IMG/VR virus record: IMGVR_UViG_3300021139_000204
Coordinates: 1 to 20,085 of that record
Length of the DNA: 20,085 bases
Reading direction: 5' to 3' (one strand)
From: a virus
Shown piece after piece: positions 4,501 through 18,376 of the stretch (position 1 is the stretch's first letter; each line of letters opens with the position of its first letter). A program made the translations under genes and the position numbers. The notes under the pieces were generated by a model. That model was given only the letters and a program-made list of their open reading frames with translations. It was not told the DNA's origin and ran no database searches.

Positions 4501-5915
4501 CAATAAAAGAATATACACCAGATTTACAAAAGTTATTTTTAGAAATGATGATGCAGGATGCATCAAGTTATGTACGTGTGCAAAACATTTACAATCCCGA
4601 GAACTTTGATCGAAGCCTACGAGCAGTTGCTGAATTCATCAAAACACATACCGATAGTCACAAAACCATGCCCACGCTGGAGCAGATTAAGGCCACAACC
4701 GGAGTTGAACTCAAGCCGGTACCCGAACTAAACGAGGGACACTACGAGTGGTTCATGCAGGAGTTTGAAGGCTTTACCCGACGACAAGAACTAGAACGTG
4801 CTATTTTAAAAGCCGCAGACATGTTGGAAAAAGGTGACTATGATCCTGTAGAAAAATTAATCAAAGATGCAGTACAAATTAGTTTGCAAAAGGATATGGG
4901 AACAGATTACTTTGCAGATCCTGCGGCACGTATCAACCGATATTTTAATTCAGGCGGACAAGTGAGCACAGGTTGGCCACAAATGGATCGACTATTGTAT
5001 GGCGGATTTAGTCGAGGCGAACTTAACATTTTTGCTGGAGGTTCAGGTTCAGGTAAATCGCTAGTAATGATGAACATAGCACTCAGTTGGCTACAAACCG
5101 GACTCAGTGGAGTTTATATTACATTGGAATTGAGCGAGGAACTAACCAGTCTTAGAACCGATGCCATGTTAACCGGGACAGGCACAAAAGACATACGCAA
5201 AGACATTGACACCACCACAATGAAAGTGCGTTTAGTAAGCAAAAAGTCCGGACAGTATAGGGTTAAGGCGTTACCGGCACAAAGCACAGTGAATGATATA
5301 CGCAGCTATTTGAAAGAAGTACAAATACAAACTGGAATACGAGTTGACTTTGTCATGGTGGATTATTTAGACTTGGTAATGCCAGTAAGCGTTAAAGTCA
5401 ATCCCAACGATCAGTTTATCAAAGACAAGTATGTGGCTGAAGAATTACGCAATCTAGCCAAAGAACTAAACATACTATTGGTAACTGCAAGTCAATTGAA
5501 TCGTAGCGCAGTTGAAGAAGTAGAATTTGATCACAGTCATATTGCAGGCGGTATCAGTAAAATTAACACAGCAGATAATGTGTTTGGTATCTTTACAAGT
5601 CGTGCCATGCGTGAGCGTGGCAAGTATCAAATACAGTGTATGAAGTCGAGATCGAGTACTGGCGTTGGGCACAAAATTGATTTAGAGTACAACATTGAAA
5701 CCATGCGCATCACTGATCCTGGCGTAGATGCAAACGAGAACAGTTTTGGCCCACCCAAGGCCAGTATCATGGAACAGATCAAAGACAATCCCCGACAGTT
5801 TATCAAGCCCGAAGCCAAACCTGGACAAGGGCTGGACATGCCCGCAGTCCAGGCCGAAGTGCAAAGTACCAAACTCAAAAGTATGTTGGCTGGATTAAAG
5901 AGCAAAGCGGAATGA
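4497..5915 (+). CDS. 41: Replicative DNA helicase, T4 gp41 / DnaB-type
   Basis: A 472-residue RecA-fold hexameric helicase that would unwind DNA 5'-3' at the fork and partner the primase upstream. Residues 1-130 form an alpha-helical N-terminal domain; the ATPase core starts around 155 (STGWPQMDRLLYGGFSRGEL). Walker A is GGSGSGKS at 181-188 with K187. Motif H1a is YITLELSEE, and Walker B is VMVDYLDL with D289. TASQLNRSAVE matches the DnaB motif H3 Gln segment, and RSSTGVGHKIDLEYN matches the H4 Arg-finger region. The last 50 residues are Pro/Lys/Gln-rich and probably flexible. Length fits gp41. The gene is translationally coupled to the primase (ATGA) and overlaps the next gene by 4 nt. Confidence 0.93.
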   Translation: MTIKEYTPDLQKLFLEMMMQDASSYVRVQNIYNPENFDRSLRAVAEFIKTHTDSHKTMPTLEQIKATTGVELKPVPELNEGHYEWFMQEFEGFTRRQELERAILKAADMLEKGDYDPVEKLIKDAVQISLQKDMGTDYFADPAARINRYFNSGGQVSTGWPQMDRLLYGGFSRGELNIFAGGSGSGKSLVMMNIALSWLQTGLSGVYITLELSEELTSLRTDAMLTGTGTKDIRKDIDTTTMKVRLVSKKSGQYRVKALPAQSTVNDIRSYLKEVQIQTGIRVDFVMVDYLDLVMPVSVKVNPNDQFIKDKYVAEELRNLAKELNILLVTASQLNRSAVEEVEFDHSHIAGGISKINTADNVFGIFTSRAMRERGKYQIQCMKSRSSTGVGHKIDLEYNIETMRITDPGVDANENSFGPPKASIMEQIKDNPRQFIKPEAKPGQGLDMPAVQAEVQSTKLKSMLAGLKSKAE

Positions 5916-6565
5916 ATTTGATTTGCTTCCCTCATTACACCTGTGGTGGATTGCTTTGTGATATTTTTAATAACACATTTTCTGCGGTGGGTGCCAATGG
6001 AGGAATAAGGTCAATTGCGCACTCTTTGGGGAAAATTGGAGACTCCAATGACATACATGATAGCTATGATCCCAACATATTGCATAAACAATTAGAAAAA
6101 ATTCGTGTAGAACAATGGCAATGGATTGGAACCCATTGCCATCCTGTATTATTAGATATAACTAAATTTGATAAAGTACTATTGATTACTACAACTACTT
6201 TTAAAAGTAAACTATATCGATGGATTAGGGCCTATCATCACTATTATTATAATTCTATTCCTTGGAAAAATCTAATGGGTATAGATCGAATAGACAAAGA
6301 AAGAGAAACAGCCAAAAGCTATCTTAAACCATTTTTGCCAATGAGTGCAACAAATGTCATCAATATCGAATTCGCCGAAGTTGTAGAAACTTCCATCGAG
6401 TTTACAAAACTCATCGGGGATGTGGAATTTGACAAACATGTATCTAGATGGAAATCGCTGAATAATTTTTTATATGATAGTGATATTTGGCAAACCACAG
6501 CAGTAAAAAGATTCTACGAGGCCGAATTGGAAGCAAATCTAAACACACACTATCTGTATGAATAA
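5912..6565 (+). CDS. Phage accessory protein, possibly sulfotransferase-like
   Basis: A 217-residue protein. The start MNLICFPHYTCGGLLCDIF resembles the strand-loop-helix at the start of sulfotransferase-like P-loop folds, where 'FPxxTGGxxL' would hold the PAPS phosphate. The middle has IGTHCHPVLL (about 72-82), then KFDKVLLITTTTFKSKLYRWI (about 87-107), a predicted strand followed by a basic helix. The late part has a series of acidic/aromatic helices. This layout is shared loosely with the minus-strand gene at 15927-16571 (FVSFTNGKFIASCL, FYTCHDY, ARVLTVIP). Both are followed by an SGNH-like gene with a short overlap. It starts 4 nt inside the helicase gene yet is more AT-rich than its neighbours, suggesting a later insertion. 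The enzymatic call is inference; glycan or lipid modification is a guess from context. Confidence 0.5.
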   Translation: MNLICFPHYTCGGLLCDIFNNTFSAVGANGGIRSIAHSLGKIGDSNDIHDSYDPNILHKQLEKIRVEQWQWIGTHCHPVLLDITKFDKVLLITTTTFKSKLYRWIRAYHHYYYNSIPWKNLMGIDRIDKERETAKSYLKPFLPMSATNVINIEFAEVVETSIEFTKLIGDVEFDKHVSRWKSLNNFLYDSDIWQTTAVKRFYEAELEANLNTHYLYE

Positions 6566-7250
6566 GATTTTTTGTTTTGGTGATGGGTTTGCTGCAAATC
6601 ATATTTGGCCCGAGTGGCCTGCTATTGTCTCGGCATTGTATCCAAACATAAAACATGAAAATTTTGGTGCAATAGGCGCCGGCAATGAGTTTATATCATC
6701 AGCAATAATTCAAGCACATAAAAAAGATCCAGATGCATTTTTTATAGTGCAGTGGGCCGAATTCAAAAGATTTGATAAATTATTGCAAGATGATTCCTGG
6801 GATGAAATAATAAAAACTGATCCAACTTATTATTTTAATACTGTAATGTTAGGACAACAAAAATGGTGGATCAGCAGCAATAGCAAACAAGAATCCGTAC
6901 AAAAATACCACCAATTTTATGTACAATCTCAACAGGCAAAATTGAGAACCGATAATTACATGTATTTGATATCAAATTTGCTAAAAGATCACGCTATATT
7001 CTTTTCAACTCACGACATGAATATCTATTCAATGCATACTAGATTTGCTGGTACAAGACAGAAAGAAATACAACCTGCGCCCTGGATTCATATGTGTTTT
7101 GTTGAAGAAATAATACTACCAAAAATGCCATTTTTACCATGCCCCAAGCGTCTAGCAATGCTGAAAGATTTAATTCAACAACAATCCTGGGAGGCCTATC
7201 ATTGGGACCGGGACAAAATCTGGAATGATATTGTCAATAGTCTAAATTGA
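6558..7250 (+). CDS. SGNH hydrolase-like protein, probably lacking the catalytic Ser and His
   Basis: A 230-residue protein aligned at its N-terminus with the SGNH protein encoded at 15205-15930: FGDGFA versus GCSFT in block I, IGAGNEFISSAI versus AAAGNQYICDSV in block III (the Gly-Asn at residues 42-43 in both), then QWAEFKRFDKLLQDDSW versus MWSGVTRLDYLTSLDDPAW. In SGNH/GDSL esterases block I carries the nucleophilic Ser; here the aligned position is Gly. The usual C-terminal DxxH block is not visible. It may therefore be a binding protein, or have an altered mechanism. It overlaps the preceding gene by 8 nt and forms a two-gene cassette with it. The DNA is AT-rich compared with the primase/helicase block. 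Confidence 0.6.
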   Translation: MNKIFCFGDGFAANHIWPEWPAIVSALYPNIKHENFGAIGAGNEFISSAIIQAHKKDPDAFFIVQWAEFKRFDKLLQDDSWDEIIKTDPTYYFNTVMLGQQKWWISSNSKQESVQKYHQFYVQSQQAKLRTDNYMYLISNLLKDHAIFFSTHDMNIYSMHTRFAGTRQKEIQPAPWIHMCFVEEIILPKMPFLPCPKRLAMLKDLIQQQSWEAYHWDRDKIWNDIVNSLN

Positions 7251-7832: not shown

Positions 7833-8605
7833 TGTATCATCTATTCGAAGGCGGTAACGCAATACCCACAAGTAAACCTGTAGATCAAGCGGATGTGCCC
7901 ACTGTGATTGCCACAACCAAACGCGAAATGCCACAGGCGCTATTAAAGAATTTAGAAACCGATATTGGCAGTGCCGGCTTTAAAACTGTGCCCAGTGGCG
8001 ACATTGACCTAATGGTTGATGCCGAAGATGTTGTTGCACTATTTAAAACACAAGATGCCAAAGATCCAGTCAAGGCTGCAAAACAAAGTCTAGCAACTTA
8101 CTTTACAGCAAAAGGCATAGAAGCCAATGTAAACGGACGCAATGTCAGTATTGGAGTAAAATATCCCAAAGGATATGCGCAAGTTGATTTGATGGTTATA
8201 CAAGATGTGCATGTGGTTGCTCCTTGGCATCAACATGGTAGACGTAAAATGTACGCTGATCCCAATTTTAAAGGTGCACATAATTTTATTTTAATGAACA
8301 GTATTGCCAAGCACCTGGGCCTGAAGTTTGATGCATTTGGAGCCAAACTGATGCGTAGAGATGACAACACTGTAGTTGGTCGTACCATGCCCGAAGTTGC
8401 CAAAATACTGCTTGGTGCCAAAGGCAAGGAAAGCGATTTGTACAGTGTGAGCGCAATGATACGAGCGCTTGAAGCCGACCCCGATCGAGAAAGTAAGTTG
8501 GCACAAGCCAGACAAGATGCAGTAAAAGGATTAATAACCTTGCCCGAGGCTGCACCCATGCCAGGAACAGCAGCTTGGTTTAGACACCTAGGCCATAATT
8601 TATGA
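7832..8605 (+). CDS. Nucleotidyltransferase-fold protein (Pol-beta-like NTase)
   Basis: A 257-residue protein with the signature of the Pol-beta nucleotidyltransferase superfamily: G46-S47, then SGDIDLMVD giving D57 and D59 of the DxD metal pair, and AQVDLMV with D119 as the third carboxylate. Such enzymes transfer a nucleotide from NTP/dNTP to RNA ends, proteins or small molecules. PWHQHGRRKMYADPNFKGAHNFIL (about 131-154) follows, and a helical C-terminal half with RALEADPDRESKL. It begins MYHLFEGG, with LFE a possible prohead-protease site. It is coupled by ATGA to the KxDG ligase-like gene, so the two probably act in one pathway such as RNA or DNA end repair; this is inference. The acceptor substrate cannot be told from sequence. 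Confidence 0.75.
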   Translation: MYHLFEGGNAIPTSKPVDQADVPTVIATTKREMPQALLKNLETDIGSAGFKTVPSGDIDLMVDAEDVVALFKTQDAKDPVKAAKQSLATYFTAKGIEANVNGRNVSIGVKYPKGYAQVDLMVIQDVHVVAPWHQHGRRKMYADPNFKGAHNFILMNSIAKHLGLKFDAFGAKLMRRDDNTVVGRTMPEVAKILLGAKGKESDLYSVSAMIRALEADPDRESKLAQARQDAVKGLITLPEAAPMPGTAAWFRHLGHNL

Positions 8606-11291: not shown

Positions 11292-11790
11292 GGACCGCAT
11301 GCCCCAAGAAGTCAGCCAGATGGTGGATCTAGCTGCCGACTACATTCAGCATTGGACTCGCAATGAATTGCATCGAATTCAATCAGGCAACGCACCAATC
11401 TGTATACCCATCAAATCGGGATATCTAATAGGCACTTACACTCTACGCACCTACTCAAATAAAAAATGCGATGTTTTTGATAACACTGCTAACTTGGTAC
11501 ACACATTTGAAGACAAACGCAGTGCAGTTCTATACACAATATACACCATCAAAAGACAGTACAAAGCAGCAGACAATATCCGTAATCTTGATATAGAAAT
11601 AAATAAAAACTATACAGACACGCAGGCCTGGCGCAATCACATAGCCAAAGCCCGTAAAAGACGAGATTATGATACAGTAGATATTAGAACTTCTAGGTTG
11701 GAAATAGCCGAAAAAGACTTGGAATTGGCACGAAACGAAATATCAAAAATCTATCTAGCTGCTAAATATAATAAAATATGGGATTTATAA
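11257..11790 (+). CDS. Basic coiled-coil phage protein, unknown function
   Basis: About 177 residues, starting MAKSRTKRKSAKDRM. An ATG at 11251 would add two residues (Met-Thr). The basic N-terminal tail could bind nucleic acid. Residues about 20-110 look like a small alpha/beta domain (PICIPIKSGYLIGTYTLRTY; SAVLYTIYTIKRQYKAADNI). The last 70 residues are a long charged helix (KARKRRDYDTVDIRTSRLEIAEKDLELARNEI), probably a coiled coil. No Shine-Dalgarno is evident and the gene starts inside the previous one. Its stop is 1 nt before the next ATG. The run of small genes around it suggests a virion or assembly role, which is inference. Confidence 0.68.
   Translation: MAKSRTKRKSAKDRMPQEVSQMVDLAADYIQHWTRNELHRIQSGNAPICIPIKSGYLIGTYTLRTYSNKKCDVFDNTANLVHTFEDKRSAVLYTIYTIKRQYKAADNIRNLDIEINKNYTDTQAWRNHIAKARKRRDYDTVDIRTSRLEIAEKDLELARNEISKIYLAAKYNKIWDL
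11762..11768 (+). promoter_or_regulatory. CTAAATA box inside the 3' end of a gene
   Basis: CTAAATATAATAAAATA at 11762-11778 begins with the recurrent box and lies 23 nt before ATG 11792. It is within coding sequence, where it encodes AAKYNKI, so it may be incidental. Confidence 0.3.
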
Positions 11791-12512: not shown

Positions 12513-12950
12513 ATGAGAATTAACGAAATAATTTTTGAGAGCAAAGACTACCCTGAGTTTGACTCAGAGGTAAACAGTCCCATCGAGGACGAGGCTGACA
12601 CCCGCGGTGATGCAAGTTTGATTACTGCTCTTGAATATTTGCGCAACGAAGCTGAACAAAGCAATGCAGTGACACCACGTGTCAAAGTAGACACTGTGAT
12701 AAATCGTGTGCGTGCCATGCCCGGAAATGAAGCATTTAACTATGCTGCTCTTGACAAAGCGCAAAAAGACAATGAAACAGTAAAGAGCATGATCAAACGT
12801 ATTGAAGATGATACCCACACCGGGGACAAATACGTTTATCTTGCTCCTGCCGAAAACACCGTTGACACCGGCGGTGACGGAGCAACCGATCTTGATAATG
12901 ATAAATCATCCAAGATTGTGAGTAGCATGGCCAAGCGTGCCGCCAGCTAA
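12513..12950 (+). CDS. Acidic phage protein with MRINE start, unknown function
   Basis: A 145-residue acidic protein. The ATG at 12513 is chosen over the upstream GTG (12498) because it starts 1 nt after the previous stop and gives MRINEIIFES, with INE and IFE matching the (I/L)xE cleavage rule of T4 gp21. Residues about 40-95 are helical (SLITALEYLRNEAEQSN; VDTVINRVRAMPG; NYAALDKAQKDNETVKSMI). The end is Asp/Gly-rich, then SSKIVSSMAKRAAS. It shares the start type and acidic character of the preceding gene and is probably its functional partner. It is the last gene before the sigma70 promoter of the cargo unit. Function unknown. Confidence 0.7.
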   Translation: MRINEIIFESKDYPEFDSEVNSPIEDEADTRGDASLITALEYLRNEAEQSNAVTPRVKVDTVINRVRAMPGNEAFNYAALDKAQKDNETVKSMIKRIEDDTHTGDKYVYLAPAENTVDTGGDGATDLDNDKSSKIVSSMAKRAAS

Positions 12951-12959
12951 CCAAAACTC

Positions 12960-12988
12960 TTGACAACTTACAATAAATAATTTATAAT
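12960..12988 (+). promoter_or_regulatory. Perfect-consensus sigma70 promoter of the cargo unit
   Basis: TTGACA at 12960-12965 and TATAAT at 12983-12988 are both exact consensus hexamers with the optimal 17-nt spacer. Transcription would begin near 12995, giving a short leader with AAGGAG at 12998-13003, 6 nt before ATG 13010. This is a host-type promoter readable without phage factors. The spacer also contains AATAAATA (12972-12979), a late-promoter-like box, so the site could serve host and late polymerases. Confidence 0.88.
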
Positions 12989-13009
12989 ACTTAACACAAG
13001 GAGAGTATC

Positions 13010-13327
13010 ATGAAGAAAATCCTATCACTATTCATTCTAACATTGAGCCTAACTGCCAGTGCCGAAGCCTGTTGCTATCGCGGTGGTTATTACCATCATG
13101 GATACAGTGGCGGTTGGGTGGCACCTGCTTTAATTGGCGGAGTAATCGGATACGAACTGGCACAACCTCGCACAGTGGTTGTTGAGCAACCGCCTGCAGT
13201 TGTTTACACACAACCTCCAATGGTGGTACCGCAACCGGGTTATGCACCTCCTCCAGTGGGCTATCATTACCAACAAATGGTTAATCCACAAACCAATCAA
13301 TATCAATTGGTATTGGTGCCAAACTAA
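13010..13327 (+). CDS. Secreted Gly/Pro/Tyr-rich small protein (moron-type cargo)
   Basis: A 105-residue protein with a clear Sec signal peptide: MKK, a hydrophobic core (ILSLFILTLSLTAS) and an AEA cleavage site before CCYRG. The mature part opens with Cys-Cys, a Gly/Tyr/His stretch (GGYYHHGYSGG) and a small-residue hydrophobic stretch VAPALIGGVIGY resembling a glycine zipper. A Pro/Val/Gln-rich region follows and ends YQLVLVPN. It would go to the periplasm or outer membrane. Such proteins are common in proteobacterial chromosomes but odd inside a T4-like late region, so it is probably host-derived. It has its own consensus promoter and ribosome-binding site. The CC and HH could bind metal (speculation). 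Surface alteration or superinfection exclusion are possible roles. Confidence 0.8.
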   Translation: MKKILSLFILTLSLTASAEACCYRGGYYHHGYSGGWVAPALIGGVIGYELAQPRTVVVEQPPAVVYTQPPMVVPQPGYAPPPVGYHYQQMVNPQTNQYQLVLVPN

Positions 13328-13328
13328 A

Positions 13329-13460
13329 ATGAAACTACGCAAACTGCGCCGTAAGTTATATGTCGCCATCTTTAGACACGATGTCAAACGTGAAAAGAAA
13401 CTTTGGTACAAAATTCTAAAAAAATCTATTAAACACAAACACACCCAGGATGTACAATAA
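13329..13460 (+). CDS. Very basic 43-residue protein, unknown function
   Basis: A short ORF of 43 codons lying 1 nt after the previous stop and sharing its last base with the iscU ATG. About 40% of residues are Lys, Arg or His (MKLRKLRRKLYVAIF at the start, KKSIKHKHTQ near the end). This exact fit between two genes, without gap, argues that it is translated. It could bind nucleic acid or an acidic partner. There is no Shine-Dalgarno beyond coupling from upstream. No family is recognised. Confidence 0.55.
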   Translation: MKLRKLRRKLYVAIFRHDVKREKKLWYKILKKSIKHKHTQDVQ

Positions 13461-13846
13461 TGGCCTACTCGGAAAAAGTTATTGATCATTACAACAATCC
13501 CAGAAATGTAGGATCATATAAAAAAGGTGAAGAGGGAGTTGGCGTAGGGCTCGTAGGAGCACCATCGTGCGGTGACGTTCTTCAATTAAGTATAAAGGTA
13601 GAAAATGGTATTATTAGAGATGCTCGTTTCAAGACATATGGATGCGGTTCAGCGATCGCTTCTAGTTCACTCATTACCGAATGGCTCAAAGGGCGAACAC
13701 TGGATCAAGCGAGCAGTATCAAAAATAGCGACATCGCTGAGGAACTTGCTCTCCCACCAGTCAAAATCCACTGTTCAATCCTTGCCGAAGACGCCATCCG
13801 GGCGGCGGTAGCAGATTACAAATCCAAGTATGATCACGCTAACTGA
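13460..13846 (+). CDS. iscU: IscU iron-sulfur cluster scaffold protein
   Basis: A full-length (128-residue) IscU. It builds [2Fe-2S] clusters from sulfur supplied by IscS and passes them on with HscA/HscB. All key residues are present: GAPSCGD with C37 and D39, YGCGSAIASSS with C62, and LPPVKIHCSILAEDAI with the HscA-binding LPPVK motif (98-102) and C105. The start MAYSEKVIDHYNNPRNVGS and the end VADYKSKY are almost the same as the E. coli protein from memory. Codons (CTC, ATC, GCG, TTC) look more host-like than those of neighbours, suggesting recent transfer. It overlaps iscA by 17 nt. No iscS, hscA, hscB or fdx is in the window, so it must depend on host partners. Confidence 0.96.
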   Translation: MAYSEKVIDHYNNPRNVGSYKKGEEGVGVGLVGAPSCGDVLQLSIKVENGIIRDARFKTYGCGSAIASSSLITEWLKGRTLDQASSIKNSDIAEELALPPVKIHCSILAEDAIRAAVADYKSKYDHAN

Positions 13847-14153
13847 AGCGGCTACAAATAAAATAAAAAAATTATTAGAAAAACGTGGCGGCGTTGGTAT
13901 TCGCCTTGGGGTTAAAACAACTGGGTGCAGTGGTTTAGCATACGTACTAGAATACGTAGATAAGTACATGGAGGATGCTAACACAATCAACTATGCACAA
14001 AACGATTTTTCAGTTTTTGTAGATAAAAAGAGTGATGTATATCTAACAGGCATGACTGTGGATTATGTTCGAGAAGGCCTTAACGAAGGTTTCAAATTTA
14101 TCAACCCCAATGAACGTGACCGGTGTGGGTGCGGTGAAAGTTTTCGAGTATGA
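13830..14153 (+). CDS. iscA: IscA-type A-type Fe-S carrier
   Basis: A 107-residue A-type carrier (HesB/IscA/SufA family) that receives clusters or iron and hands them to target enzymes. The three ligand cysteines are present: TTGCSGLAYV (C33) and RCGCGESF (C99, C101). The segment VREGLNEGFKFINPNERD between them is typical of IscA. Length equals that of bacterial IscA. The ATG lies 17 nt inside iscU, so the pair is translationally coupled and keeps the chromosomal iscU-iscA order. ErpA or SufA are alternatives, but order and sequence favour IscA. The stop overlaps the next gene by 4 nt. Confidence 0.93.
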   Translation: MITLTEAATNKIKKLLEKRGGVGIRLGVKTTGCSGLAYVLEYVDKYMEDANTINYAQNDFSVFVDKKSDVYLTGMTVDYVREGLNEGFKFINPNERDRCGCGESFRV

Positions 14154-15241
14154 TAGCAATATATAGCGATAGTCAAATAATAGATCTAGAGTGGATACCC
14201 AATGCAAATATCCCGCAACCAAATACAGTTTACCACACCTACGAAGAATATGTAAACAGTACCGCTGAATATAAAATAGCATTTACTACACAACGACTGC
14301 ATTGTGATTATGATATCAATTGTACTGCTTATCGAGGATTTGAAGATAAGATAAACAAACTGAGTGCAGTCAGCACATTGGTGTTTACCATTGAAAGCGA
14401 GCTACACGATTTTCATTGGCGCATGTGGGAACTGTGTTATCATGACAATGTGTATTGGGTCGTGCCCGGACAAGTCAATGACAGTGGCATGAGTAAAAAT
14501 ATCATACACTGGGCCGATTGGTTTAAAACAACAGTGGCCCTGTATCGCAAACTGCCCGACATAGTTGCAAAATTTGATTATACTGCCACAAAGTCTCGAT
14601 ATTTTGATGCATTATTAGGCAGTCCCAAACCACATCGAGATTTTGTCAATGCACAAGTTATAGCAAACAATCTACAAGATAAGTTTATTATGACCTATGG
14701 CGGACAGTGGAATGACAATGAATTTTATGCCAAAGACTATTTTATATGGGAACCAGGAACTACAGCGGTTGAAGACAACCAACCAGGTACTGCAGGTTAC
14801 GTGGAATATTTTGGCAATAGATGCCATTTGAGTCAAGTTATTCCGCTAGATGTTTTTAATAATACTGCCTACAGTATAGTTGCTGAAACCGACTTTGACA
14901 ATACTCTAAGTTTTTTTAGTGAAAAAACGGCCAAGCCCTTGATTTATCGTAGACTGTTTGTTGCATTCAGTGGGTACAAGTTTCTACAAAATTTACGTGA
15001 TCTAGGATTTAGAACATTTGACAACGTCATTGATGAAAGTTATGATTTGATCAAGGATGATACAGCACGACTTACGGCAGCATTTGAACAGGTAAAATAT
15101 TTGTGTTCAGTTCCGCAGTCAGAAATATTTTCACAGATTGCCACTACATTGGATCACAATTATAATCTAATAATGTCCACTGATTGGACTCGACGTGCTG
15201 CACATCAGATCAGCGACATTATTGTTTCGGCCCAGCGTTGA
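14150..15241 (+). CDS. Glycosyltransferase-like protein (GT10-like C-terminal motif)
   Basis: A 363-residue protein. The N-terminal ~130 residues are an alpha/beta domain (MIAIYSDSQIIDLEWIP; VSTLVFTIESELHDF; DNVYWVVPG). In the second half, FFSEKTAKPLIYRRLFVAFSG (E258), DLGFRTFDNVIDESYD (ending at 299) and a helical end form a pattern shared with the minus-strand gene at 16564-17649. The 'SEKTxKP ... hhhhG' segment resembles the donor-binding motif of GT10 fucosyltransferases (TEKLxxAL..VPVVLG). Many marine viruses carry related genes. It is last in the cargo unit, coupled to iscA by ATGA. Its 3' end overlaps the SGNH gene on the opposite strand by 37 nt. Sugar transfer to host or virion glycans is inferred. 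Confidence 0.6.
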   Translation: MIAIYSDSQIIDLEWIPNANIPQPNTVYHTYEEYVNSTAEYKIAFTTQRLHCDYDINCTAYRGFEDKINKLSAVSTLVFTIESELHDFHWRMWELCYHDNVYWVVPGQVNDSGMSKNIIHWADWFKTTVALYRKLPDIVAKFDYTATKSRYFDALLGSPKPHRDFVNAQVIANNLQDKFIMTYGGQWNDNEFYAKDYFIWEPGTTAVEDNQPGTAGYVEYFGNRCHLSQVIPLDVFNNTAYSIVAETDFDNTLSFFSEKTAKPLIYRRLFVAFSGYKFLQNLRDLGFRTFDNVIDESYDLIKDDTARLTAAFEQVKYLCSVPQSEIFSQIATTLDHNYNLIMSTDWTRRAAHQISDIIVSAQR

Positions 15242-15930: not shown

Positions 15931-16571
15931 ATTTGATTCTTTTTATGTGCTAGGTAAGCATTTCTATATCGAAATACTTTTCGAAAGTCTAATTGTATTT
16001 TTAACGCGATTGCCAGAGTTCTCATTGCTTTTACAAAAGCAGGCTCGTTGTAAATGTCTTGTTGTTTGATTTGAAGGTCAGTGTCGTACAATCTGAATTC
16101 ATCGAATTCTCGTTCAACACGACTATTTTCAAAAGTTGTCTCAAATTGATTAGTGTTTTTTGATTGATAATTTTTCTTGCACAAATCCAAATTGGGAATA
16201 ACTGTGAGTACTCGTGCATTTGTAAATATATTTTTTAAATATTGAAAAGTCTTGTAATCGTGGCAAGTGTAAAATATATATTTGTTTTGCTCCACTGCTG
16301 ACTTTGCCTCGTCGGTCAAATAGTCAAACCAATTATTGGGATTATTGAACCAATCATTTTTGGGATCTCGCCACCAAAATTTTTCATCGTTTACTTCTAC
16401 AAAAAACCAATCACTGTAACGTCTTAGTCGATCGATCATGTCTTCTTCAGTGACCATTTTGTATACATCATTGCTCAACATAAGACAAGAGGCAATAAAT
16501 TTTCCGTTAGTAAATGAAACAAAGTAGTTTATTATTATGCGATCACTTTTTACAAACTCTTCTTTATTCAT
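15927..16571 (-). CDS. Accessory protein, possibly sulfotransferase-like, paralogous in layout to 5912-6565
   Basis: A 214-residue protein. IIINYFVSFTNGKFIASCLMLSND (about 12-35) is a strand-loop-helix with T-N-G-K in the loop, a possible phosphate- or PAPS-binding segment. NKYIFYTCHDYKTFQYL (about 95-111) and NARVLTVIPNLDLCKKNYQSK (about 116-136) follow, matching the order THCHP then KVLLITTTTFKSKLY in the plus-strand gene at 5912. The end is helical and basic. Both copies directly precede an SGNH-like gene. Aromatic and Asp/Asn-rich stretches (FWWRDPKNDWFNNPNNWFDYL) are distinctive. Identity between the copies is low and I cannot prove the family. It is coupled on both sides (8 nt and 4 nt overlaps). 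Confidence 0.5.
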   Translation of the reverse strand: MNKEEFVKSDRIIINYFVSFTNGKFIASCLMLSNDVYKMVTEEDMIDRLRRYSDWFFVEVNDEKFWWRDPKNDWFNNPNNWFDYLTDEAKSAVEQNKYIFYTCHDYKTFQYLKNIFTNARVLTVIPNLDLCKKNYQSKNTNQFETTFENSRVEREFDEFRLYDTDLQIKQQDIYNEPAFVKAMRTLAIALKIQLDFRKVFRYRNAYLAHKKNQI

Positions 16572-17649
16572 ATTGATCTACTACTTGTTGCATCCGCTGA
16601 TTAAAAACATTCACCTGTTTGTATAATAAATCGCGATTGTGTTCAATTATGTGTTGTACTTTTATGTAGTCACGTTGTATTTCGTCTTTGGAACGAGACA
16701 AAAACTTTACTATTTCGTTTGTTACTGTGATTAATCTATTGCCGTTGTTTAAAATTTTGTCGTAACTTTCGTCAATTACGCCATCAAATGTTTTATAGCC
16801 TAGACTGTGTAATAAATCCAAGCTGCCTGTTTGCCCCACAATAATGAACATTTGATTGTTGCTTATGGCGTTAAAAGTCTTTTCAGTTACAAAACTCATG
16901 TTAAAACTGTGCGCATTATTGACAAATTGTGTTTCGCCAATGATGGCCAAGTAACAAGATAAAAACAATGATCTAGACAACCCGCCAAGTTGGTGCGAGG
17001 AATCGATACTGATGGGAATATGTGGTTCACACAAATCAAACGTCGTTTGACAAAAGTCAAGTTGTTGTTGTGTAAACATTCGATTGATGCTAAAATCCAA
17101 TGGACTGTATTTGCCTTCACGGCAACGATATGTTATCAGTGATTGATCCAACAAGTTATGTCTAATTAGAGTGCCCAATGTAAATCTACGATGTTGTGTG
17201 TCCTTGAGATTGAGAAAAGAATATTTATTGGGTTTATCAAGCGTTATTGGTTGTGGGCCAACATCTTTATTGACCCAAATCCGTGAAGCGCAAATGTCAA
17301 ACACCGGGAAAAATTCAATATCAAACTTATGTGGAAAATATGAATCAACATTGACGTTGTGACTCAGCCCGGTCAAATACACCAATTTAAATCCCTGGCG
17401 GCCAATTATGTCGTTTAACTTTTCGATCCAATCTCGGTTGAATACCCCTTGCTCGACGGCATGAAACAGTATTACTAAAGTGTCAGGGCCAAGAGTATTT
17501 AAAAATGCCAACTCGGTATCGAAATGGTCGTGAATATTGTAGATACAATGTATAATGATATTGTATCTGCTGTTGAGTTTTAGATTTTGCAAATCGTTGC
17601 CAAATGGGTCGGCACGTTCGATATTTTGAACAGTAATTGACGCAGACAT
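16564..17649 (-). CDS. Glycosyltransferase-like protein (GT10-like C-terminal motif)
   Basis: A 361-residue protein, first gene of the minus-strand operon. An N-terminal alpha/beta domain (YNIIIHCIYNIHDHFD; DTLVILFHAVEQGVF; GFKLVYLTGL) is followed by YSFLNLKDTQHRRFTLGTLI (about 160-179). The C-terminal block is MSFVTEKTFNAISNNQMFIIVG with E256, then LHSLGYKTFDGVIDESYD, shared with the gene at 14150. The TEKTF...G segment resembles the donor-sugar motif of GT10-type enzymes. There is no signal peptide or membrane helix, so it would act in the cytoplasm on a soluble or membrane-bound acceptor. It starts from a divergent 16-bp region containing TATAAATA 6 nt before its ATG. The DNA is AT-rich. 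Confidence 0.6.
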   Translation of the reverse strand: MSASITVQNIERADPFGNDLQNLKLNSRYNIIIHCIYNIHDHFDTELAFLNTLGPDTLVILFHAVEQGVFNRDWIEKLNDIIGRQGFKLVYLTGLSHNVNVDSYFPHKFDIEFFPVFDICASRIWVNKDVGPQPITLDKPNKYSFLNLKDTQHRRFTLGTLIRHNLLDQSLITYRCREGKYSPLDFSINRMFTQQQLDFCQTTFDLCEPHIPISIDSSHQLGGLSRSLFLSCYLAIIGETQFVNNAHSFNMSFVTEKTFNAISNNQMFIIVGQTGSLDLLHSLGYKTFDGVIDESYDKILNNGNRLITVTNEIVKFLSRSKDEIQRDYIKVQHIIEHNRDLLYKQVNVFNQRMQQVVDQYE

Positions 17650-17665: not shown

Positions 17666-18376
17666 ATGATAAACAACCTATACAACTATACACCGATTAG
17701 CAGAACCACAATTGAAGGCAAACGACATTACTGTTTGCCCGATGGCAGTAAAGTACCCAGTGTAACAACTATTCTAGATCGTACGGCTCCTGCAGAAAAA
17801 CGGGAAGCATTACAAAAGTGGCGTGATGCCATTGGCCATGAACGTGCACAACAGATCACAACTGAAGCCGCCAATCGCGGTACTAGGATGCACAGTTATT
17901 TAGAAGCATACATTCTCAGTGATGACATGAAGCCCCTGCCCACCAATCCCTATGCACATCCTTCTTGGTTTATGGCCGCACAAGTTATACTTGAGGGCTT
18001 GTGCAATGTAGATGAATTTTGGGGCAGTGAAGTGCCTGTTTACTATTCGGGCTTGTATGCAGGTACTACGGATTGCGTGGGTGTATGGAAAGGTGCTCCT
18101 GCTATCCTGGATTTCAAGCAAAGCAACAAAGTCAAAAAGCGTGAACACATTGGCGACTACTTTATTCAACTGGCAGCCTACGCAGCAGCACACAATGACA
18201 CACACGGCACCGAGATCGATACCGGTGTAATTTTGATGGCAGTTCAGCCAAAACAACTGCCAGATGGCACCTATTCCACGCCAGAATACCTGGAATTTGT
18301 TGTTGAAGGTGACGAGTTTAAGTATTGGACAGAAGAGTGGATGAAACGTGTGGAGATGTATTATCTTGTCAGCTAA
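17666..18376 (+). CDS. PD-(D/E)XK nuclease (RecB/Cas4/MGME1-like exonuclease)
   Basis: A 236-residue nuclease. The motif order matches the RecB-like PD-(D/E)XK family: RGTRMHSYLE with H76, E122 in WGSEVPVYY, GTTDCVGVW with D136, then the core AILDFKQSNK with D149 and K151, and FIQLAAYAAA with Q168 and Y172. The N-terminal PSVTTILDRTAP is usual for the MGME1/phage subgroup. These metal-dependent enzymes trim single-stranded or double-stranded DNA ends in recombination, repair or host DNA degradation. The gene runs divergently from the minus-strand glycan operon and is followed by the tail spike. There is no Fe-S cysteine cluster as in Cas4/AddB, so no link to the IscU/IscA pair is evident. Confidence 0.85.
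   Translation: MINNLYNYTPISRTTIEGKRHYCLPDGSKVPSVTTILDRTAPAEKREALQKWRDAIGHERAQQITTEAANRGTRMHSYLEAYILSDDMKPLPTNPYAHPSWFMAAQVILEGLCNVDEFWGSEVPVYYSGLYAGTTDCVGVWKGAPAILDFKQSNKVKKREHIGDYFIQLAAYAAAHNDTHGTEIDTGVILMAVQPKQLPDGTYSTPEYLEFVVEGDEFKYWTEEWMKRVEMYYLVS

Follow-up and report, generated by a model that had tools for sequence, protein, structure and literature searches.

We consider it quite probable that the overlapping iscU–iscA gene pair of this phage is a working two-gene module for Fe–S cluster assembly and delivery that belongs to the phage lineage, with phage radical-SAM enzymes probably being its main clients. This reading draws on the identity of both proteins, their intact ligands, purifying selection, synteny among phages, a mostly viral grouping of IscA and gene-order links in relatives. 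As we picture the loading of clusters, the host desulfurase IscS would give sulfur to the phage IscU, which would assemble a cluster from it; host Hsc chaperones would then unload IscU through its LPPVK site, and the overlapping A-type carrier would put the clusters into proteins that need them and are synthesized in the course of infection. Chief among these clients are probably radical-SAM enzymes (4Fe–4S) that phages encode; in many relatives, their genes stand beside or between iscU and iscA, and this phage's own client would lie outside the 20-kb fragment.

Identity and layout of the iscU–iscA pair

The window, i.e., the whole stretch of DNA analysed, is a 20,085-base IMG/VR virus record and a fragment. 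Its phage genes include those for a primase, a DnaB-like helicase, an exonuclease, and virion and tail-fibre proteins. The features used below are the following:

5912–7250, + strand: two ORFs downstream of the helicase; a twitch-type radical-SAM gene occupies this slot in L244, L245, L002 and L059
13010–13327, + strand: small Gly/Pro/Tyr-rich ORF, 105 aa, an upstream neighbour kept in relatives
13329–13460, + strand: small basic ORF, 43 aa, with its stop directly adjoining that of the iscU start codon (TAATG)
13460–13846, + strand: iscU, 128 aa, Fe–S scaffold, with C37, D39, C62, H104, C105 and LPPVK at 98–102
13571–13573, + strand: iscU Gly38 codon, intact in the window (TGC GGT GAC) and the break site in sister-phage alleles
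13830–13846, + strand: 17-nt overlap between the iscU end and the iscA start
13830–14153, + strand: iscA, 107 aa, A-type carrier, with C33, C99 and C101
14150–15241, + strand: 363-aa ORF that overlaps the iscA stop (ATGA); AlphaFold pLDDT 79
17666–18376, + strand: exonuclease, PHROG 298; 32-nt gap to the fibre gene, with no radical-SAM gene there

The window IscU scores above the NCBIfam IscU equivalog-domain cut-off (TIGR01999, 206.8 vs. 192.4 bits), is 77% identical to its E. coli K-12 counterpart over 124 aa and has an IscU, 2l4x, as its closest solved structure (E 2e-62). The window IscA is above the A-type-carrier subfamily cut-off (TIGR00049, 105.5 vs. 58.8) and below the strict IscA equivalog cut-off (TIGR02011, 134.2 vs. 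150.6 bits), though the latter is its top-scoring A-type model; it is 52% identical to E. coli K-12 IscA over 107 aa, and its closest solved structure is 1s98 (yfhF, i.e., IscA; E 2e-30). Chance is excluded as the source of these identifications. The earlier note on this DNA had described both proteins as full length with every ligand cysteine, D39 and LPPVK in place, and a re-check found all of them. Both genes are under purifying selection, with dN/dS of 0.06–0.13 for iscU (seven pairs) and 0.05–0.14 for iscA (five pairs) in unsaturated NG86 comparisons with the nearest relatives, dS being near 2 or above in some pairs. Judging from these sequences, the window IscU and A-type carrier are probably functional.

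E. coli IscR, IscS, HscB, HscA, Fdx and IscX have no match in the window (E 1e-3). The arrangement is thus not a complete ISC operon, which would place IscS, HscBA and Fdx beside iscUA; the only Isc-protein matches are iscU and iscA, as expected from the earlier description of a phage-borne pair without IscS or HscA/B. Like the bacterial isc operon (E. coli K-12, L240), the window has iscU followed by iscA, with the same residues; unlike it, the window lacks matches to the six other proteins and its two genes overlap. Since no IscS or Hsc partners are found in the window, the phage proteins would depend on a sulfur donor and a chaperone of the host, which is also what the earlier note had supposed.

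The neighbouring 14150–15241 ORF and the one at 16564–17649 are paralogous (24% identity) and end alike, around TFDxVIDESYD. The predicted model of the former gives weakly GT-B-glycosyltransferase-like PDB matches, none of them at E ≤ 0.001, and a function based on this fold was dropped.

The surroundings of the pair bear on whether it belongs to the phage at all. The window's neighbours on both sides of the pair are also found in L002, L046, L077 and L231, while L003 and L163 each hold one close pair member in the same slot. The 43-aa basic ORF stands 5′ of iscU in L002, L003, L004, L006, L046, L059 and L241 as well. A chimeric join at 12950–14153, the event that the earlier note had named as fatal to its claim, is very unlikely because of this synteny. 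Errors of the kind do happen: a GenBank contig with iscU–iscA labelled "Acinetobacter phage MD-2021a" (CAKLQF020000009.1) is really a whole bacterial isc operon amid chromosomal genes, and CAKLQH020000011.1 is probably likewise. The window, however, contains no further Isc gene, and the overlap is found in none of 75 bacterial pairs, where the spacing is 5–462 nt (to the first aligned IscA codon). Taking bacterial contamination and a chimeric join together, we regard their probability as negligible.

Occurrence of the pair in viruses and bacteria

The pair is a frequent trait of phages, not a rarity. An IMG/VR scan with IscU gave 445 relatives, and one with IscA gave at least 563; the best 80 of each were kept, 77 of the IscA set being new loci. 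Each locus spans up to 10 kb either side of the match, and some contigs recur across scans. IscA is present in 72 of the 80 best IscU loci, in 71 of them on the same strand and within 5 kb, and IscU is present in 72/77 of the new loci among the best 80 IscA relatives; as relatives were ranked by identity to the query, conservation counts lean high. The earlier note had regarded an iscU–iscA pair as unusual, a view that these counts overturn. Among 48 arbitrary viral records (those on contigs of at least 10 kb among 80 listed of 90 found by an arbitrary 15-mer), one has IscU and two have an A-type carrier. The exact 17-nt overlap recurs in 51/105 distinct viral pairs.

Matches to E. coli IscS, HscB, Fdx and IscR are absent from all 157 viral loci (best 80 IscU plus 77 IscA); for comparison, 80 bacterial loci contain them in 75, 72, 58 and 68 cases, respectively. 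With no phage IscS found, one might imagine that IscU donates no cluster and instead ties up host IscS as a decoy, to the detriment of tRNA thiolation or IscR control. However, the three cluster cysteines, D39 and LPPVK are intact in 104/104 distinct viral IscU proteins aligned, and a co-inherited A-type carrier, with its three cysteines likewise intact in 104/104 distinct viral IscA proteins aligned, would be superfluous for a decoy. We therefore consider a decoy highly improbable and keep to cluster assembly and delivery. Apparent HscA matches in nine viral loci proved to be DnaK-like Hsp70s, 65–75% identical to DnaK and 40–47% to HscA; these phage genes lie up to 10 kb from iscU in L026, L029, L030, L031, L041, L043, L044, L050 and L053.

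The phylogenies that the earlier note had called for were informative for one protein. IscA groups mostly with viral sequences: the window protein falls within a starred all-viral set of 86 rows (98, quick tree), in a tree that warns of long branches. The quick tree of IscU is poorly resolved, with 9 of 182 inner branches starred, and the nearest row to the window IscU is the viral L002. An origin from one named host was dropped, IscU being too short and its tree poorly resolved.

Phage IscU and A-type carriers are already known, and the window pair joins a known kind of gene. In the portions seen of Nishimura et al. 2017 (PMC5332604), A-type carriers are reported in 14 and IscU in 6 of 16 marine viral genomes, so that both genes would occur in 4; like the window, these genomes encode phage IscU and/or an A-type carrier. 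Radical-SAM genes are present in the same marine genomes, 12 of them in one T4-like genome, and the authors considered them possible cluster users; the same portions describe no adjacent overlapping pair, in-between radical-SAM gene or interrupted iscU, in which they differ from the loci analysed here. According to the excerpts consulted, HMO-2011-type phages carry iscU and erpA (PMC9038755) and OM43-group phage genomes carry sufA (PMC10580990), Fe–S assembly genes as in the window; these are other phage groups, for which the excerpts describe no iscU–iscA pair or client. A phage iscA (PMC8226683) and a phage Fe–S biosynthesis protein (PMC7678222) also appear in print. Phage C48C1 (OQ984149, annotated Kyanoviridae) has an IscU 68% identical to that of the window and one radical-SAM match in its genome; unlike the window, it shows no IscA match in the 40-kb stretch analysed. 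Searches of the open-licence literature turned up no account of an interrupted iscU or of a phage radical-SAM gene lying between iscU and iscA.

Radical-SAM genes as candidate clients

Within the window, no client is evident. The motif CxxxCxxC is absent from all 30 ORFs; the primase has one CxxC, and the exonuclease at 17666 has three scattered cysteines with neither CxxC nor CxxxC, in agreement with the earlier remark that this nuclease lacks a Cys cluster. The same note took the ribonucleotide reductase to be class I, for which there is no basis in the window, as PF02867 has 0 matches there; it is present in 8 of 11 relatives tested. The statement that the use of the clusters was not evident holds for the window, and the search for Fe–S clients that had been proposed for the rest of the genome finds none in its 30 ORFs. 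In relatives, that search does give a likely answer, since many of them carry radical-SAM genes.

The closest association is seen where the two genes stand apart. In 55 loci, iscU and iscA are separated by 200 nt or more; the longest ORF in this gap carries CxxxCxxC in 41 of them, and these ORFs encode 29 distinct proteins. The in-between CxxxCxxC ORF exceeds 500 aa in 37 loci (25 distinct proteins, 24 clusters at 90% identity). Two of the long ones were scanned, and both are above the radical-SAM cut-off and match the B12-binding domain, one of them under the cut-off of the latter. Among short in-between ORFs scanned, L172 is above the radical-SAM cut-off and L170 just under. A profile of 15 aligned long in-between proteins has TokK and CysS as its nearest solved structures. 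The two long proteins of the L180/L225 type have no fitting PHROG, and that of L225 has no match in the phage collection. Cobalamin-type radical-SAM genes of about 565–603 aa lie between iscU and iscA at 8245–9996 in L180 and 8291–9988 in L225, and L073 and L079 each hold two such genes in tandem. In other loci, the gap is filled by a second A-type carrier, and the one scanned (L013) is above the ErpA cut-off.

Elsewhere in relatives, a radical-SAM gene follows the exonuclease in L006, L046 and L059, and twitch-type genes stand behind the helicase in the four loci listed above and just 5′ of iscU in L046. Radical-SAM genes are present in 22/29 chosen records (20 above cut-off; 28 chosen viral records plus phage C48C1) and in 30/42 records related by the window's helicase (28 above cut-off; 42 of 80 helicase loci). 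When the helicase set is limited to records of at least 30 kb, all ten with IscU have one (nine above cut-off) and neither of the two without IscU does. In the 48 arbitrary viral records, radical SAM above cut-off is found in 2/2 with an A-type carrier vs. 4/46 others (one-sided Fisher p 0.013). One 278-kb virus record (G012 77165–90742, L324) has eleven radical-SAM matches in 14 kb.

Other counts point the opposite way. Only 8/50 overlap-type loci (17 nt) have a radical-SAM gene in the analysed stretch, and 3/50 within 5 kb (tblastn, known phage examples). Radical SAM occurs in 6/33 IscU-scan records of 10–43 kb, but in 13/17 IscA-scan records. In the set related by the C48C1 helicase (19 of 80 loci), records of at least 30 kb have it in 0/3 cases with IscU and 4/9 without. 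A general radical-SAM enrichment in all IscU phages is therefore unsupported, given the short IscU-scan records and the C48C1-helicase set. The link is kept where the gene lies inside the pair, and as a frequent presence in records related by the window's helicase. Because the overlap-type, short IscU-scan and C48C1-helicase results go against it, the client link is strong for the in-between type and would reach the window by inference from its relatives.

These same counts leave some room for an alternative in which the pair serves the host's own Fe–S enzymes, those of respiration and of nucleotide and amino-acid pathways. Such enzymes would have to stay loaded while the infected cell is poor in iron or under oxidative stress, and any phage client would then be incidental. 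The window shows no client, and in most overlap-type loci no radical-SAM gene is close by, as would be expected from this explanation. The 41 loci with a radical-SAM-motif ORF between iscU and iscA argue against it, and we judge it unlikely relative to delivery to phage radical-SAM enzymes.

Interrupted iscU alleles in sister phages

L241 is a near-twin of the window: its other matched proteins are 90–100% identical to the window's over 11 kb. Its iscU allele differs from that of the window, breaks after C37–G38 and runs off the contig end; the junction (11463–11481) reads TGC GGA TGA CC GGA GAT, vs. TGC GGT GAC in the window. We hypothesize, with about even confidence, that sister phages including L241 keep iscU functional despite a stop and a frame break between C37–G38 and D39. 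An AGGAG motif and a covarying 16-bp hairpin would make ribosomes hop 4–5 nt from Gly38 to a second Gly and go on at D39. Together, these features would then form a short, portable element for translational bypass within a metabolic gene; phages would exchange intact alleles, such as the window's, and interrupted ones at a single locus, at times together with an intein at C62.

A pattern scan for the break returned 32 contigs, of which 30 are iscU and two unrelated. A scan for the hairpin only returned 48 contigs, all interrupted, 47 in the form Gly–stop–1 or 2 nt–Gly–Asp and L632 otherwise. With L523 and L608, whose hairpin is changed, the total is 50 interrupted contigs (L241, L291, L317, L503–L507, L509–L532, L534, L608, L615–L633), 49 of them regular. 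In these 49/50, C–G–D would be restored if ribosomes hopped from Gly38 to the second Gly. The regular form comprises 16 distinct alleles and 12 junctions, with GGA, GGT or GGC at take-off, TGA, TAA or TAG as the stop and GGA, GGT or GGC at landing. The insertion is 7 or 8 nt, so both frames occur.

AGGAG is found within 60 nt upstream in 48/49 regular contigs and ends 44–48 nt before the end of the Gly38 codon in 15/16 alleles, over different amino acids; among 167 distinct intact viral alleles, it is in that neighbourhood in one and at the exact place in none. In the hairpin, 99.4% of pair cells hold (ten distinct 54-mers), three pairs show compensatory changes, and 0/500 shuffles reach the covariation score; partners slid along the hairpin pair at 26–48%. 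Intact alleles form 5–13 of the 16 stem pairs, one of them 15, in a comparison that favours interrupted alleles as the stem was taken from one, and some intact alleles fold strongly in their own way. A search of Rfam with three hairpin-bearing loci gave no match at E ≤ 0.1. Across 26 interrupted alleles, synonymous difference is 0.22 over the 14 codons that precede the break, compared with 0.71 over codons 1–14 and 0.82 over codons 39–58; the corresponding values for 175 intact alleles are 0.67, 0.78 and 0.81. All 26 complete insertion-free second parts of interrupted iscU retain C62, C105 and LPPVK, and the interrupted copy is the sole IscU found in the 104-kb record G069 and in G057. L524 and L527 (6585–7877) have an extra insertion directly before C62 that ends HN-C and is intein-like, with a Hint match under cut-off in L527, the one of the two that was scanned.

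Decay or sequencing error is very unlikely as the source of the breaks because of their recurrence, constraint and covariation. TAG recoding was also rejected: the in-frame TAG of L311 and L312 falls past the IscU residues that were matched, and six loci inspected have no in-frame stop in their helicase stretches. If the interrupted iscU were instead a split gene giving two polypeptides, a second start would be expected, and four GGA junctions do have an ATG overlapping the stop (TGA); in the other 8/12 junctions, however, the second frame contains no usual start codon (ATG, GTG or TTG) between Gly38 and D39. As for frameshifting, a single frameshift is insufficient because insertions of both 7 and 8 nt occur. 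Ribosome hopping faces objections of its own: L632 has no Gly at the landing site, and some of the synonymous constraint could stem from a short mobile conversion tract.

The classical bypass, T4 gene 60, is a single long case with a Gly take-off and immediate stop, a Gly landing, a hairpin, a Shine–Dalgarno-like motif and a 50-nt gap. The interrupted sister alleles resemble it in the Gly take-off followed by a stop, the Gly landing, the hairpin and the Shine–Dalgarno-like motif. They differ in a gap of 4–5 nt instead of 50 and in a hairpin that is upstream, in the coding region; the third base of the take-off and landing Gly codons often differs, which also counts against a hop.

Taken as a whole, the pair adds to a known class of phage genes, one that occurs often, holds its position and, in many relatives, is linked to radical-SAM genes. 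With this frequency and these links, one can put to the test why phages carry genes for Fe–S assembly. Of greater weight than the pair itself are the interrupted sister alleles. If ribosomes do hop over a stop at the cluster site, such alleles would add a new form of translational bypassing, a natural short system with many variants that span three Gly codons, three stops and two gap lengths.
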